Of a DNA stretch of 44,369 nt, positions 10,524 through 43,085 are shown one piece after another. Position numbers and translations under genes: made by a program. The stretch is taken from the NCBI GenBank assembly GCA_949285835.1, contig CASEAR010000008.1, positions 1 to 44,369 of the forward strand, read 5' to 3'. The notes beneath the pieces are model-generated. The model worked only from the letters and a program-made list of their open reading frames with translations. It was not told the origin of the DNA and did no database searches. This DNA comes from an uncultured Verrucomicrobiota bacterium. Lineage in GTDB: Bacteria > Verrucomicrobiota > Kiritimatiellia > RFP12 > UBA3636. Positions within the stretch are counted from its first letter, which is position 1; every line of letters starts with the position of its first letter.

Positions 10524-12113
10524 TCACTTGTTTCCCGAAGCATATCCATGCGAAACCATAAATCGATAGCTCTCCTCTATGGCCTTCCACATCTCAACTT
10601 CACAGTAGTCGAGTTCGACGACTATGCTCGAGACCTGCTCCGGAAGCTCAAGCACGAGTTCACGTATGGGCAACTCGCCCTGACCGAGAGGCAGCAGAGA
10701 TATCTTCCTGTCCAGAATCCCGTTCACATACTTCTGTTCGGCATCCTTCTGGTGAAGAGCCCCGTCCTTGATATGGATAAGAATCATCCTGTCGCTGAAC
10801 AAGCGCATCATATCGACCGCATTCTCCACCCCGATGTTGGTGGACCAGAACGAATCTATCTCAAACTTGACTTCCGGGCACAATTCCGCGTAAATCTCGT
10901 ACTTCAGTCTTCCGTCTATACGCTCGAACTCGAAGGCATGATTGTGCTGGAAAAGCGTTATGCCGGCCGCCTTGAATTTCTCCAGCATCAAATTTGTATT
11001 TTCCGCTGTTCTTTTTATGGAGTCCATGTCCTTGAATTCAGCCGCGCTGTAACCGCAGACGCACTTGTCTAGCCTCAGCTCTCCGAGGTCGTCTATAATT
11101 TTCGAACAGTCGTCCGGAGAGTGGGCCCATGGCGAATGCGACGAATACATCTCAAGCCCGAGATCGTCGATTATCCGGCGGAACTCCCTGCAGGGAATAT
11201 CATGAAACCCGGCCGGTTCAACGGCTTTGTACCCTATGTCTGCCACTCTCTTTATTACGTTTATAAAGTCATCCCTGGTCTTTGAATATTCACGCAGGGA
11301 ATAAAGCTGCACGGCTATCGGTTTAGGCATCTCTGGTGTCCTTTCATTTGGGGCCGCAGGCCCTTCGTTCACTTTCTCTGCCGGAAATCTAGCACACATA
11401 CGTTTTTTTTGCAACAAACTACGTCTCCCTCGACCTTCCGCGCCTTCCGGCCACCCCTCTGCTCCAGCTTTGTTTTTCAGGAAGATTATGACCGCTGCGG
11501 AAACTGCCGACATTGCCACTGCAGATACGATGTCCGCCGTCCCGCTTCCGCGCAAGGCGAGTTCCCCCGCAAAAACAATGAGAACCGTGGAAGGCAGAAA
11601 TCCCACTGCAGAACCAATTGCAAAATCCCGGAACCCGGTGCCTGTAACGGACATGTAAACGGAGGAAAAAACCCCGGGAACGGGCAGCTGACGGACAAGG
11701 ATCACCGCCGGAATTCCCCGTACGCGCCCCAGCCTCCAGAACATGTCCCGAGTCCTCCCGCCGGACACGGCCTGCTTCTCCAGGCTCCCGATCTTCGCAA
11801 GGAAATACGTCACCGAAGCCCCTGCCACCGATGCGAACATGGACGCAGCAAAAGCGGGCCACGGATCGAGCAGAACAACCGCAGACGCCGCAATCCACAT
11901 TCTGGGGACCCCAAACCCGCACAACAATGTGCAGACCGCCGCAAACACCACGAAAAACCACCGATGCGACGAATACGCATCCGCCGTATCCACAAGCGCG
12001 CTGCGCAGCGCCTCCGCTTCTCCTCTGAAAATTACGGAGCACAGAGCGGCCGCCGCCAAAAGCAATACAGCGGCCGTACCGACTGCTCGGAACATCCGTC
12101 TCCGGCGGTTCAT
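10524..12113 (-). CDS. VTT-family membrane protein fused in frame to a TIM-barrel sugar isomerase/epimerase-like protein
   Basis: One open frame covers two unrelated modules. The N-terminal part (to about residue 230) is a TVP38/TMEM64 (VTT, DedA-like) membrane protein with several transmembrane segments and the family motif region RGIPAVILVRQLPVPG followed by GSAVGFLPSTVLIVFAGE. The C-terminal part is a xylose-isomerase-like TIM barrel beginning MPKPIAVQLYSLREY, with HNHAFEFE, FEIDSFWS and HIKDG elements typical of sugar phosphate isomerase/epimerase homologues. Barrels of this type normally start exactly there as separate proteins. ATG 11330 has its own ribosome site (AAAGGA about 9 bases upstream), so the barrel (10524-11330, 268 aa) may also be made alone. 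Between the parts lies an A8 run (11410-11403); adding or losing one A would end the VTT protein shortly afterwards. ATG 12113 is my start, with ATG 12095 (after CGGAG) an alternative. Confidence 0.7.
   Translation of the reverse strand: MNRRRRMFRAVGTAAVLLLAAAALCSVIFRGEAEALRSALVDTADAYSSHRWFFVVFAAVCTLLCGFGVPRMWIAASAVVLLDPWPAFAASMFASVAGASVTYFLAKIGSLEKQAVSGGRTRDMFWRLGRVRGIPAVILVRQLPVPGVFSSVYMSVTGTGFRDFAIGSAVGFLPSTVLIVFAGELALRGSGTADIVSAVAMSAVSAAVIIFLKNKAGAEGWPEGAEGRGRRSLLQKKRMCARFPAEKVNEGPAAPNERTPEMPKPIAVQLYSLREYSKTRDDFINVIKRVADIGYKAVEPAGFHDIPCREFRRIIDDLGLEMYSSHSPWAHSPDDCSKIIDDLGELRLDKCVCGYSAAEFKDMDSIKRTAENTNLMLEKFKAAGITLFQHNHAFEFERIDGRLKYEIYAELCPEVKFEIDSFWSTNIGVENAVDMMRLFSDRMILIHIKDGALHQKDAEQKYVNGILDRKISLLPLGQGELPIRELVLELPEQVSSIVVELDYCEVEMWKAIEESYRFMVSHGYASGNK
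11403..11410 (-). repeat. A8 homopolymer at the VTT/TIM-barrel junction
   Basis: On the coding strand TTG CAA AAA AAA CGT: eight adenines after a C. One extra A would lead to TAG at 11391-11389 within five codons; one fewer would lead to TGA some 14 codons on. In either case the membrane protein would end and the TIM barrel would depend on ATG 11330. It may be a slippage site or a base-calling error. Confidence 0.6.
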
Positions 12114-12129
12114 TCGGGACGAAGGGTTC

Positions 12130-13743
12130 TCAATACGCTTCCGGCTGCAAATCAAAAACCTTCCAGACATAGACTTTCGACCCCATGGCGAACGTCCCGC
12201 CGTCCCCCGTCAGACAGCCGAATCTCGCATCCAGATTTTCTGCATCTTTATCCAGAAACACTGCTACGCCATGCTCTTCTATCTGCATCGCATTAAGCAT
12301 TTCTGCGTCCGTATCCAGTCTTTTCCCTGTTCGGCCCGCATGGAGGGCCAGAGTTTCGCCGTAGATGTCGTACAAAAGCAGCCTGCCGTCCTCCGGTATG
12401 TACTTCTGCGCTATCTCCTTCATCTCCATCGGCTCCTTGAGCTCATTGAACGCCGGATACACTATCCAGCTGCACAATGAGAACACCGCCGAGACAAACA
12501 GGCAGAACCGGACGAACCAGCTGCCCTTGCGGATACCGGCAAGAACCCCGGCGCTGAATGCAAGCGAAACCAGAAAGCACATGTGAAAAGGTACGAAGTC
12601 CGGCAGCTGGACGGCGGCATATTCCGAAACCCGTTCTTCGATCAGCCAGCGTGTCCAAGGGAAAAACAATACCATGGATACAGCCGCAAAAACCGCGGGC
12701 ACCAGAAACGCGAAAAGAACGGCCACCCCGCGGCAATAACGGTTTTCGCGAATTGACGATGCCGCACACGCCAGAATCAGCGCCAGAGGAGGAAACGCCG
12801 TCATGATGTAGACGCCCCGTTTTGAAACTGGAATGGAGAAAAAAACAACAACAAACAGACACCACGCGCACAGCCTGCGCAGCTGCATCCTGTCGGTCTT
12901 GTAAAGGAACACGGCGGCAGGCGGCAGGAACAGCGTCCACGGCATGAAATCCCCCGGCAGACGAAACAGATAATACCATACAGGCTTGACATGCCCGTAT
13001 GATCCGGCAGCCCGGGATAAATTCTGCGAAAACAATATCTCCTTAAAATACGCATCCGTGCCACTCCCCAAAGCTGCAAATGCGAGCCACACTGCCGGAA
13101 CCGCCAGACTCAGCGCGAACACCAGTGCCCACTTCCCCGCGCCCATTCCGATACGTTCTTTTCCACCCCATTTGAACGCCAGAAAAGACCCCAGCGGAAT
13201 TATCAGCCCTACAGGGCCTTTAGCAAGAACAGCCAAACCCATAAGCAGAGAAGCGCACGCCGTGCGCCGCACGGACTGCCCGGAAACGAGCAGGTAAAAT
13301 GCCGACAGTTCCAGGCCTGTCAGAAGGGCGTCTATCTGACCAATACCGCACGTCTCCCAGAACTGCACCGCTGTGGACACAATAACGCACGCAAGAAGAC
13401 CTGTTCCGGCGCCGCGTATTCTTCGGCCTATGCCGTACACAGCCAGAAGCGCAAGCGCTGCGCCGACAAGATTCGGCAGCCTCTCTCCGAACGGCGAGGG
13501 TAAAACAGCCGACCCGGCGTTTATAAGCCAGAACATGAGCGGAGGCTTGTGCCCGTACGCCTCGCCATGACGCTGCGGTACAGCCCAGTTCCCAGTATCT
13601 GCCATCTCTCTGGCCACATACACAAATCTTGCCTCGTCAGGCTCCCAAAAGCCGCGCAAAGCATACTGTCCGCCCCACATCAAAATAACAAAAAGGAGTA
13701 TGAAAAGCAGCGGATGCCTTTTGAAAAAATCTATCGCTTTCAT
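12130..13743 (-). CDS. GT39-family (ArnT/PMT-like) membrane glycosyltransferase
   Basis: Polytopic inner-membrane enzyme that transfers a sugar from a polyprenyl-phosphate carrier to an acceptor on the periplasmic side. The first loop holds the FWEPDEARFVYVAREM motif with the conserved Asp-Glu pair, followed by HKPPLMFWL, LSAFYLL and LAKGPVGLIIPL, all typical of ArnT-like proteins. About twelve hydrophobic segments precede a periplasmic C-terminal domain (from about residue 430). ATG 13743 is preferred over the GTG two codons earlier. Immediately upstream is a GT2 enzyme that could make its polyprenyl-phosphate sugar donor. The acceptor (lipid A, protein or glycan) is unknown. Confidence 0.88.
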   Translation of the reverse strand: MKAIDFFKRHPLLFILLFVILMWGGQYALRGFWEPDEARFVYVAREMADTGNWAVPQRHGEAYGHKPPLMFWLINAGSAVLPSPFGERLPNLVGAALALLAVYGIGRRIRGAGTGLLACVIVSTAVQFWETCGIGQIDALLTGLELSAFYLLVSGQSVRRTACASLLMGLAVLAKGPVGLIIPLGSFLAFKWGGKERIGMGAGKWALVFALSLAVPAVWLAFAALGSGTDAYFKEILFSQNLSRAAGSYGHVKPVWYYLFRLPGDFMPWTLFLPPAAVFLYKTDRMQLRRLCAWCLFVVVFFSIPVSKRGVYIMTAFPPLALILACAASSIRENRYCRGVAVLFAFLVPAVFAAVSMVLFFPWTRWLIEERVSEYAAVQLPDFVPFHMCFLVSLAFSAGVLAGIRKGSWFVRFCLFVSAVFSLCSWIVYPAFNELKEPMEMKEIAQKYIPEDGRLLLYDIYGETLALHAGRTGKRLDTDAEMLNAMQIEEHGVAVFLDKDAENLDARFGCLTGDGGTFAMGSKVYVWKVFDLQPEAY

Positions 13744-13770
13744 AAACACACGCTTTCCGTCTCGCCCAGC

Positions 13771-13872
13771 TCAGGCAAGCTCCGTATATTCCGGCGCTCC
13801 GGCGCGGCTTTTAAGCCACCTTACGCCGAACATGTCACGCACTGTCCTGAACAGCCTGCCCATATGCGTCTA
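13771..13872 (-). other. In-frame TAG and the conserved C-terminal tail of the GT2 gene beyond it
   Basis: After GRSK the frame has TAG (13872-13870), then continues 32 codons without a break to TGA at 13773-13771. The encoded tail contains GRLFRTVRDMFGVRWLK, which matches the expected end of DPM1-like GT2 enzymes ('SKY...RLFRT..D..GVRW'). The TAG stands where these enzymes have Tyr, one base from TAT or TAC. With the tail included, the gap to the next gene shrinks from about 126 to 27 bases, as usual in this operon. Confidence 0.7.
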
Positions 13873-14487
13873 CTTGCTCCTGCCGACAGTCCTGCTGCGA
13901 TGCGAGACCGGGATTTGCGTTATCTTCGCCCCCTGCATCATAGCAAGCGCCGGGAGAAATCTGTGCATGCCATCCCAGTACTGGAGGTCTTTCACAAAAC
14001 CGGCCCTGAACGCCTTGAGCGAACATCCCGTGTCGGCGATGCCGTCGCCTATCACCGCCCTCCTTACCGCATTGGCAATACGACTGCCGGCCCTTCTGGA
14101 AAAACTGTCCATGCGATTTCGCCGGAACCCGCAGCATACGTCCGATGCCCTTAGCGCATCCACACAATTCGGAATGTCCGACGGGACGTTTTGCCCGTCC
14201 CCGTCCAGCGTCACAACAATATCGCCGCGCGCCGCCCTGAACCCCGCCCACATCGCTGCGCTCTGCCCCCAGTTGCGCCGCATCGATATAATCCTGAGCT
14301 CAGGAAAACCTCTGCCGCGGATGTCCTCCAGAAGCTGTCCGGTGCCATCATCCGAGCCATCGTTCACCACAACGATCTCGTACCTTCCCATCTCCGAACA
14401 GGCATCCCGCACCTCTTCGAGCAGCGGAGCAATACTGCCGCACTCGTTGTAAACCGGAATAACAACACTTATCATATCCTCAGCCAT
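13870..14487 (-). CDS. GT2-family glycosyltransferase (dolichol-phosphate-mannose-synthase-like), C-terminus cut by a TAG
   Basis: Cytoplasmic, probably membrane-associated enzyme that transfers a sugar from a nucleotide donor to a polyprenyl phosphate. The GT-A fold motifs are present: VVIPVYNE near residue 7, VVVNDGSDDGT near 39, VTLDGDGQN near 91 (metal- and sugar-binding DXD-like), and DTGCSLKAFR near 147. ATG 14487 is chosen because GAGGAGG lies nine bases before it; ATG 14496 directly abuts that site. The protein ends at TAG immediately after GRSK, about 32 residues before the family's usual end; the missing part lies in frame downstream. It is first in an operon with the GT39 enzyme, which probably uses its product. 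Confidence 0.85.
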   Translation of the reverse strand: MAEDMISVVIPVYNECGSIAPLLEEVRDACSEMGRYEIVVVNDGSDDGTGQLLEDIRGRGFPELRIISMRRNWGQSAAMWAGFRAARGDIVVTLDGDGQNVPSDIPNCVDALRASDVCCGFRRNRMDSFSRRAGSRIANAVRRAVIGDGIADTGCSLKAFRAGFVKDLQYWDGMHRFLPALAMMQGAKITQIPVSHRSRTVGRSK

Positions 14488-14522
14488 GTCTGCCATCCTC
14501 CTCTTTTCTCTCAGGGAGCGAC

Positions 14523-18247: not shown

Positions 18248-18263
18248 AAGAGTGAAACAGAAA

Positions 18264-19514
18264 ATGCAAAAAAAAATCGCATTGTTTGCCGCAGTCTTAT
18301 CGACGGTTTCTGCGGTCTGCCAGACAAACGCCGCACAGACCTCCATATTTGAAGCAATCGCAGGAGGCGACTCCAAACGCATAGCGGAATTGCTGGAGAA
18401 CAGCAGAGAAGAGGTGCTGAACGCGCGTTTTGACAACGGAGTGACGCCGCTGCAGTGCGCCGCCGCCAATGACAATGCAGACGCCATATACAGGCTCATT
18501 CAAGCCGGATTTGATGTAAACAACGTCGCCGCGAAAAGCAAAACAACCGCACTGCATTGGGCGGCCAGCAAAGGCGCAACCGATTCCGCAAGGGTGCTCA
18601 TACAGTACGGGGCCGATGTAAATTCGCGCGCCGTCAACGGATGGACGCCACTCCATTTCGCCGCACAAAAAGATCATGCGCAGGTCATAAAAATACTCAT
18701 TGAAAACGGTGCGGATCCCAACGCCACAGACAGCGCGAAGTCCACTCCCCTGCATATCGCGGCCAAAAATGGCAGCGCCGGCGCAGTTCGTGAACTGCTC
18801 TCCTGCGGAGCCTCTCTTTCGGCAGTAAACAACAACGGGAAAAAACCTGCCGACGTCGCCGCCGGTGACGCCGCCGCTTTGCTGAAGGAATCCACTGCAC
18901 CGTCAGCTCCCGCAGCTGCCGCCGCAGCAGAAGAGACGGCACGGCCCGGCTCTACAGACGGCGCAGGCAGCCCGCAGGCTCTCCCCGCCGCAGCTGAACC
19001 TGCCCCCGCCGCAGCCGCGGCAAACGACGGCGCAAAAACCGCAGCAGCAGCTACTGCCGGGAATCAGGCTGATGTCGAAAAATTGACAAAACGCCGGATG
19101 CTGGAGCTCTTTTTGCAGAATCCGGCGACCGTCCACTTCCCGGACGGATCCGCGTATCAGGGGGAAATGAAGCGCGGCTCCTTCCACGGATACGGTACGT
19201 ACGTTCTGCCATCCAGAGAATACTACACCGGCCAGTTCAAACACGGAAAACGCTTCGGAGTAGGCACTTACACGTACACAAACGGCGATTCGTACACCGG
19301 TCAGTGGAAAAACGACGTCCCTCACGGGATTGGGGTATTCTCATACAGTGACGGCGGGAAAGTTTCAGGCGAATGGAAAAAAGGCCTACTCATCCGCGGC
19401 AATGGCATCATCACGCATGCCGGAGGCAAACAGTTTGCGACAAGGTGGGAAGACGGAAAAATAATATCGTCCGAGGAACTTGCCGCGGACGGCTCCGGTA
19501 AATCCGCAGAATAA
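18264..19514 (+). CDS. Secreted ankyrin-repeat and MORN-repeat protein
   Basis: An unusual two-part exported protein of about 416 aa. A signal peptide (residues 1 to about 24) is followed by five or so ankyrin repeats with the usual G-TPLH-AA cores (NGVTPLQCAA, KTTALHWAA, NGWTPLHFAA, KSTPLHIAA). Next is a long Ala/Pro-rich linker (about 205-270). At least three MORN repeats follow at the C-terminus (YQGEMKRGSFHGYG, YTGQFKHGKRFGVG, YTGQWKNDVPHGIG). Both repeat types bind partners (ankyrins proteins, MORN proteins or lipids), so an extracytoplasmic scaffold is likely. ATG 18264 is preferred over GTG 18252; codons 2-5 form a run of nine A. Confidence 0.85.
   Translation: MQKKIALFAAVLSTVSAVCQTNAAQTSIFEAIAGGDSKRIAELLENSREEVLNARFDNGVTPLQCAAANDNADAIYRLIQAGFDVNNVAAKSKTTALHWAASKGATDSARVLIQYGADVNSRAVNGWTPLHFAAQKDHAQVIKILIENGADPNATDSAKSTPLHIAAKNGSAGAVRELLSCGASLSAVNNNGKKPADVAAGDAAALLKESTAPSAPAAAAAAEETARPGSTDGAGSPQALPAAAEPAPAAAAANDGAKTAAAATAGNQADVEKLTKRRMLELFLQNPATVHFPDGSAYQGEMKRGSFHGYGTYVLPSREYYTGQFKHGKRFGVGTYTYTNGDSYTGQWKNDVPHGIGVFSYSDGGKVSGEWKKGLLIRGNGIITHAGGKQFATRWEDGKIISSEELAADGSGKSAE
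18268..18276 (+). repeat. A9 tract directly after a start codon
   Basis: ATG CAA AAA AAA ATC: nine adenines at codons 2-5 of the ankyrin-MORN gene. Runs this long are rare in this GC-rich window. A change of one base would abolish translation from this start, so it could act as a phase-variation site, but it is also a simple way to encode Lys-Lys. Confidence 0.5.
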
Positions 19515-41984: not shown

Positions 41985-43085
41985 TCAGCTGCCGGAGGCG
42001 ACGCGCCCCAGTTCCGCCGCAAGCCGCAGTTCCGCATTCGAGTCCGCCAGAGCCGCAATAAGCTCGTCCATCATCCCCTCCATTATACGGTCGAGACTGT
42101 ATAGCGTAAGATTTATTCTGTGATCGGTAAGCCTGTTCTGTGGGAAGTTGTACGTCCGTATGCGTTCGCTCCTGTCGCCGGAGCCGATCATAATTCTTCT
42201 CACAGCGCCCACGCGCTGCTCTTCCCGGGTGCGGTTCAAATCAAGTAGGCGGGTTCTGAGCGCGGCCATGCACTTTTCCTTGTTCTGGTGCTGCGACCTT
42301 TCGTCCTGACTTTGGACGACGATCCCCGTCGGTATGTGCGTTATGCGCACGGCGGAATCGGTTTTGTTGACGTGCTGTCCTCCCGCGCCGCCGGACCGGA
42401 AGTAGTCTATCCGCAAATCCTGGGGGTCTATGACGAGAGAGTCATCCTCATCGGCCTGCGGGAACACCGCCACCGTCGCCGCCGAAGTGTGTATGCGCCC
42501 CTGCGACTCTGTTTCAGGCACGCGCTGCACACGGTGCCCCCCGCCCTCATACCTCAGCGCGGCGTATGAGCCTTCGCCTTCAACTGCGAAGACGATCTCC
42601 TTGTAGCCGCCCAGCTCGTTGGGACTTGCGTCCACGGGCGTTACCTTCCATCCGCGCGACTCCGCGAAACGCGAATACATTCTGAAAAGGTCCCCCGCAA
42701 ATATCGCGGCTTCGTCTCCGCCGGTACCCGCCCGTATTTCAAGCATTGCGTCGCGTCTTTCATCGGGATCAGGAGGAAGCAGAGCTATGGAGAGCGCCCT
42801 TTCCGCAGCGGGGATGCGGCCGGTACACGCTTCCAGTTCTTCGGCGGCAAGAGCCCTGAACTCTTCGTCCGCCGATTCATCCTCCATGACAGCTCTCGCC
42901 TCGTCCGCGGCGTCCACAAGCCGGAAATACTCGCCGGCCTTCTGCTCGAGCTTTCTCAGCGAAGAATGCTCGCGCACCAGAGCGCGGTACTTCTTCTGGT
43001 CGGACGCAGCCGCCGGATCGGACAGCTCCTTCTCAACCTCCCGCAGCCGCAGAAGAATGTTACCAACCTGTTCCTTTTCGATCAT
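41985..43085 (-). CDS. prfA: Peptide chain release factor 1
   Basis: Class I release factor that terminates translation at UAA and UAG. The GGQ catalytic motif lies in [14 protein letters not shown] near residue 233, and the codon-reading PXT motif appears as PET in [17 protein letters not shown] near 187. The length of 366 aa is normal. All parts look intact, so UAG should be read as stop here. This matters because two genes in this window are cut by TAG. It is preceded on the strand by the rpmE terminator and has a weak ribosome site. Confidence 0.97.

Follow-up and report, generated by a model that had tools for sequence, protein, structure and literature searches.

The window, by which we mean the whole 44,369 nt stretch of DNA that was analysed, is on contig 8 of a draft genome of an uncultured Verrucomicrobiota bacterium (2.67 Mb, 143 contigs, 91% complete). 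On its minus strand there is a gene for a GT2 glycosyltransferase (Table 1), which starts at 14496, reads to a C-terminus of ...HRSRTVGRSK, and is then stopped by a TAG. The frame does not close there. It continues as THMGRLFRTVRDMFGVRWLKSRAGAPEYTELA until a TGA, and with the TAG decoded the full protein would have 241 residues. A sequence-only reading of this DNA had claimed a TAG followed by 32 open codons, and both are present on the minus strand. It had also claimed that the spacing to the next gene is 27 nt when the tail is counted. That gene is a GT39 gene. We measured the same 27 nt from the TGA to its ATG at 13743, and the distance would be 21 nt if it starts at the in-frame GTG at 13749. 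Without the tail, the TAG and the downstream ATG are 126 nt apart.

Table 1. Features of the window that bear on the interrupted GT2 gene.
Feature	Position	Strand	Remarks
GT2 glycosyltransferase ORF as it stands	13870..14496	-	208 codons + TAG; PF00535 E 1.4e-30
In-frame TAG at residue 209, invariant Tyr site	13870..13872	-	TAC/TAT in 108/108 relatives
32-codon tail, untranslated or read through	13774..13869	-	residues 211-231 model as one helix
TGA closing the frame, level with the C-termini of relatives	13771..13773	-	alignment to short-form orthologues
GT39/ArnT-like lipid-linked sugar transferase, downstream	12130..13749	-	start GTG 13749 or ATG 13743
prfA, release factor 1	41985..43085	-	intact, above curated cut-off

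There are a few other things to see in and around this cluster. A long antisense open frame (13570-14449, plus strand) overlies the GT2 gene, and gene pickers that go for the longest frame would prefer the antisense one. At 10524-12170 on the minus strand there is an ORF of 548 codons that combines a VTT/DedA-type membrane domain (88-203) with a xylose-isomerase-like TIM barrel (307-520). The linker between these domains has the look of intergenic DNA: there is an A8 run in it and, ahead of an ATG at about 11331, a sequence resembling a ribosome-binding site. This ORF is probably one of three things: two genes with an out-of-frame stop between them, a real fusion, or the result of an indel error. 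Farther away, a protein encoded at 18252-19514 on the plus strand has ankyrin repeats and C-terminal MORN repeats.

From its sequence, we classify the interrupted gene as a polyprenyl-phosphate glycosyltransferase of the DPMS/ArnC type within GT2, in a short form that lacks terminal transmembrane helices. It is placed with the polyprenyl-phosphate GT2 family by descent, and the product as encoded would be without interface helix 2. ArnC (undecaprenyl-phosphate 4-deoxy-4-formamido-L-arabinose transferase; PDB 9asc, 9bhc, 9bhe) is the best match in sequence (E 4.5e-39) and also in fold (33-36% identity over about 225 columns). ArnC has an SKY motif in the same place, and with the window GT2, too, an ArnT-like GT39 gene comes next. 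However, ArnC is longer than members of the window GT2 family, which end after the interface helix; ArnC has two transmembrane helices beyond it. The window GT2 scores 143 bits against the ArnC equivalog, far under the cut-off of 529 bits, so we did not assign a sugar from ArnC. The dolichyl-phosphate mannose synthase of Pyrococcus furiosus (PfDPMS; PDB 5mlz, 5mm0, 5mm1) shares the GT-A core, R202/K208 of the acceptor loop (A-loop), and interface helix 2 (IFH2) behind the A-loop, but it is only 25% identical to the window GT2, whose family has no transmembrane domain. IFH2 is present in PfDPMS, whereas the TAG cuts off its equivalent in the window GT2.

The sequence-only reading had the TAG standing at the site of a conserved tyrosine, and this turned out to be the case. 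The codon aligned with the TAG is a Tyr codon in all 108 relatives (TAC in 72, TAT in 36), which were drawn from two sources, with some genomes possibly in both, and include longer paralogues. ArnC in the PDB likewise has Tyr at the equivalent position. For PfDPMS the phmmer alignment has Leu at this site, so a Tyr here characterises the ArnC-like members of the family and not every DPMS enzyme. In the search for relatives, the gene itself was the sole match with a stop inside, and the matches in 162 genomes of the order and 346 genomes of the class were all free of internal stops, the window's own gene apart. The reading had named as evidence against itself any relatives that end equally early and have no conserved tail; we looked for them and the relatives do not have this form. 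About 57% was the highest identity of any relative in our searches, which covered the relatives set, the genomes of the order and class, and a collection of genome contigs; a search of viral contigs gave no closer relative either. Nor did the relatives set or the order and class genomes contain another genome of the species or genus.

Past the stop, the tail aligns without gaps to short-form orthologues from the same family and order, to which the whole alignment is 46-54% identical, and almost every one of these orthologues continues with SK-Y-TN..RL...D..GV.W..R at the tail. Averaged over all relatives, identity is 42% for residues 210-232 and 47% for the body, and to the nearest relatives it is about 57% for residues 210-232 and 56% for the body. 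Because identity in the tail is about equal to identity in the body, chance is ruled out as the source of the tail. Of the positions that at least 11 of 12 orthologues conserve, the window gene keeps 9 of 11 in the tail and 56 of 59 in the body. We simulated the decay of the tail with a simple neutral model, in which a divergence of 0.1 per site leaves those nine tail residues intact with P 0.12, and a divergence of 0.2 per site does so with P 0.011. The simulation thus leaves room for a neutral divergence of only about 0.1 per site after the stop arose, and 0.2 is unlikely. Since 9 of the 11 positions are kept, the TAG should be young, an artefact, or read through. The comparison with orthologues would then mean that the tail was selected until recently, or is still selected, or that the TAG is not real. 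If there is a stop, it would be recent on the scale of species, because the tail has not decayed.

The AlphaFold2 model, made with 40 sequences, has a mean pLDDT of 93.9 overall, and in it residues 211-231 are a single helix. Among solved structures, ArnC and Pyrococcus DPMS come closest to the model and GtrB is next, and helix 211-231 models as the equivalent of interface/juxtamembrane helix 2. The catalytic residues are otherwise retained, among them D98, D100, Q102, R125, R128, R202, and K208, which are invariant in the alignment of relatives. D46-G47-S48 is invariant as well, so that together with D98 and D100 the DGS and DxD motifs of the GT-A domain are present, and R202 and K208 of the acceptor loop align with R202 and K208 of PfDPMS (phmmer). 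Interface helix 2, on the other hand, is missing from the ORF as it stands and is found only past the TAG. The claim that the stop cuts off the usual C-terminus of DPMS-like enzymes thus agrees with the model and its PDB matches as well as with the alignments.

Published work on related enzymes bears on what this loss would do. In PfDPMS, IFH2 comes after the A-loop with its R202 and K208 and is in contact with the first isoprene units of the dolichyl acceptor, and a variant without residues 230-352 that retains IFH2 is still active (PMC5526996). The juxtamembrane helices of GtrB are highly sensitive to substitution, and changes there abolish activity (PMC4728340). Because IFH2 binds the lipid acceptor in the archaeal dolichyl-phosphate-mannose synthase, we predict that the enzyme is inactive once truncated. 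The TAG separates the catalytic core from the lipid-binding helix, so loss of function is what one would naturally expect, and by this analogy the 208-residue product should be inactive or nearly so.

We rank first, with a little more confidence than doubt, a recent and real nonsense mutation in an otherwise intact polyprenyl-phosphate GT2 gene. The stop is a lone one in an otherwise intact frame and the orthologues are intact, as in a recent nonsense allele or incipient pseudogene. The sequence-only reading had left the choice between error, mutation and readthrough open, and we saw no positive sign of readthrough or recoding. A single-base change would have converted the conserved Tyr codon to TAG, and RF1 would end translation there. 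The product would retain the GT-A catalytic core through Lys208 of the acceptor loop and would lose helix 211-231, which in related enzymes rests on the membrane and supplies half of the cleft for the lipid acceptor, leaving a protein with little or no activity. What we show is the stop, the conserved Tyr, the conservation of the tail, and the predicted helix; we infer that the base is real, that the stop is young, and that activity is lost. The places we give to this and the other four explanations are judgements and were not computed. Premature-stop alleles occur widely among bacteria, and most do not last long (PMC7918605). The in-frame stops of Belinky et al. 2021 (PMC7918605) are likewise premature stops in otherwise conserved genes and likely short-lived, but that study used stops common to several genomes and the window stop is in one genome only. 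The observation is sound, and it is ordinary in kind, an instance of a phenomenon that is already known.

Second, and possible rather than probable, is a consensus error at the TAG: low coverage or mixed strains would have put a wrong base into this metagenome-assembled genome, and the gene would be intact in the living organism. Such an error would look just like a recent nonsense allele. An error of this kind would fit a draft genome in 143 contigs and a gene that is intact save for one codon, with a tail that has not decayed and a downstream spacing that suits the full-length gene. The fusion ORF with the A8 run is in the same cluster and could be a second local error. However, the TAG is well inside the contig (13.9 kb into 44 kb) and outside any homopolymer. 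In addition, we found no internal stop in 63 other domain copies of the genome (45 ABC-transporter and 18 GT2), which gives no obvious hint of a high error rate.

In third place, and improbable in our view, is functional readthrough of the UAG. Most ribosomes would stop at K208 and some would insert an amino acid and go on to make the 241-residue enzyme, which would lower or regulate its amount. The tail is conserved about equally with the body, a result that readthrough would also give, and there are published cases of bacterial in-frame stops under purifying selection (PMC7918605). Against this, the stop is in the window genome only, and since no relative carries the same stop it is without evolutionary conservation. 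A maintained form of readthrough predicts a stop that is common to relatives and we do not see one, though even the nearest relative shares only about 57% identity. Compared with shuffled sequence, the RNA after the stop has no significant excess of structure (z -1.30), and there is no suppressor tRNA among the 38 decoded tRNAs. More doubtful still is the specific form in which the UAG is kept as a leaky stop and sets the amount of a polyprenyl-phosphate-sugar synthase, with most chains let go ahead of the lipid-binding helix.

It is very unlikely that the 208-residue protein is a working enzyme in its own right, a true short variant. Truncation leaves the GT-A core complete, but Tyr209 is kept in every relative and the tail is kept in the short-form orthologues. 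The published work on DPMS and GtrB places the helix in acceptor binding (PMC5526996, PMC4728340), and only a very young change would have left the tail undecayed.

That TAG is reassigned in this organism, or decoded as pyrrolysine or through a suppressor tRNA, has next to no chance of being right, even with the TAG sitting at an invariant sense position. The window itself carries an intact prfA, and release factor 1 takes UAG and UAA as stop. TAG is not depleted as a terminator, with 60 of 367 long ORFs ending in it (about 675 kb of the genome), and the coding score downstream of TAG is not above that after TAA or TGA, given the spread. For PylS, there was no match above the cut-off in 30 genomes, the window's included; sub-threshold matches scored about 20 bits, and such matches also occur in most control genomes. 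MttB is absent. We found no CTA anticodon among the 38 decoded tRNAs of this 91% complete genome, in a screen that is imperfect, as the Rfam search missed a tRNA-Tyr that ARAGORN found and one match was cut by a contig end. On the strength of RF1, the usage of TAG, the 63 stop-free domain copies, the tRNA set, and the absence of pyrrolysine genes, we rejected genome-wide TAG recoding, pyrrolysine, and a suppressor tRNA. We also ran a codon-usage screen over about 675 kb for other genes broken by one stop, and it showed no obvious broken genes, but its score is weak and many of the listed pairs are adjacent genes in the same frame. It missed the window GT2 as well, because the longer antisense ORF covers it.

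For the genetic code, there is nothing new in this TAG. There is a practical consequence in that gene callers may log the truncated protein as complete. The rest concerns the pathway. The GT39/ArnT-like neighbour is likely the user of the GT2 product, and if the stop is real it would be left dependent on another donor synthase. Elsewhere in the genome, on contig 52, there is a longer polyprenyl-phosphate GT2 paralogue (G000:C52:6232-6906) with 41% identity, an open frame of 337 aa, and no internal stop. If the window copy is dead, this paralogue might supply the lipid-linked sugar. A nonsense mutation, if that is what the TAG is, would mean that the gene has been caught at the onset of its loss, and that the part lost is the lipid-acceptor helix.
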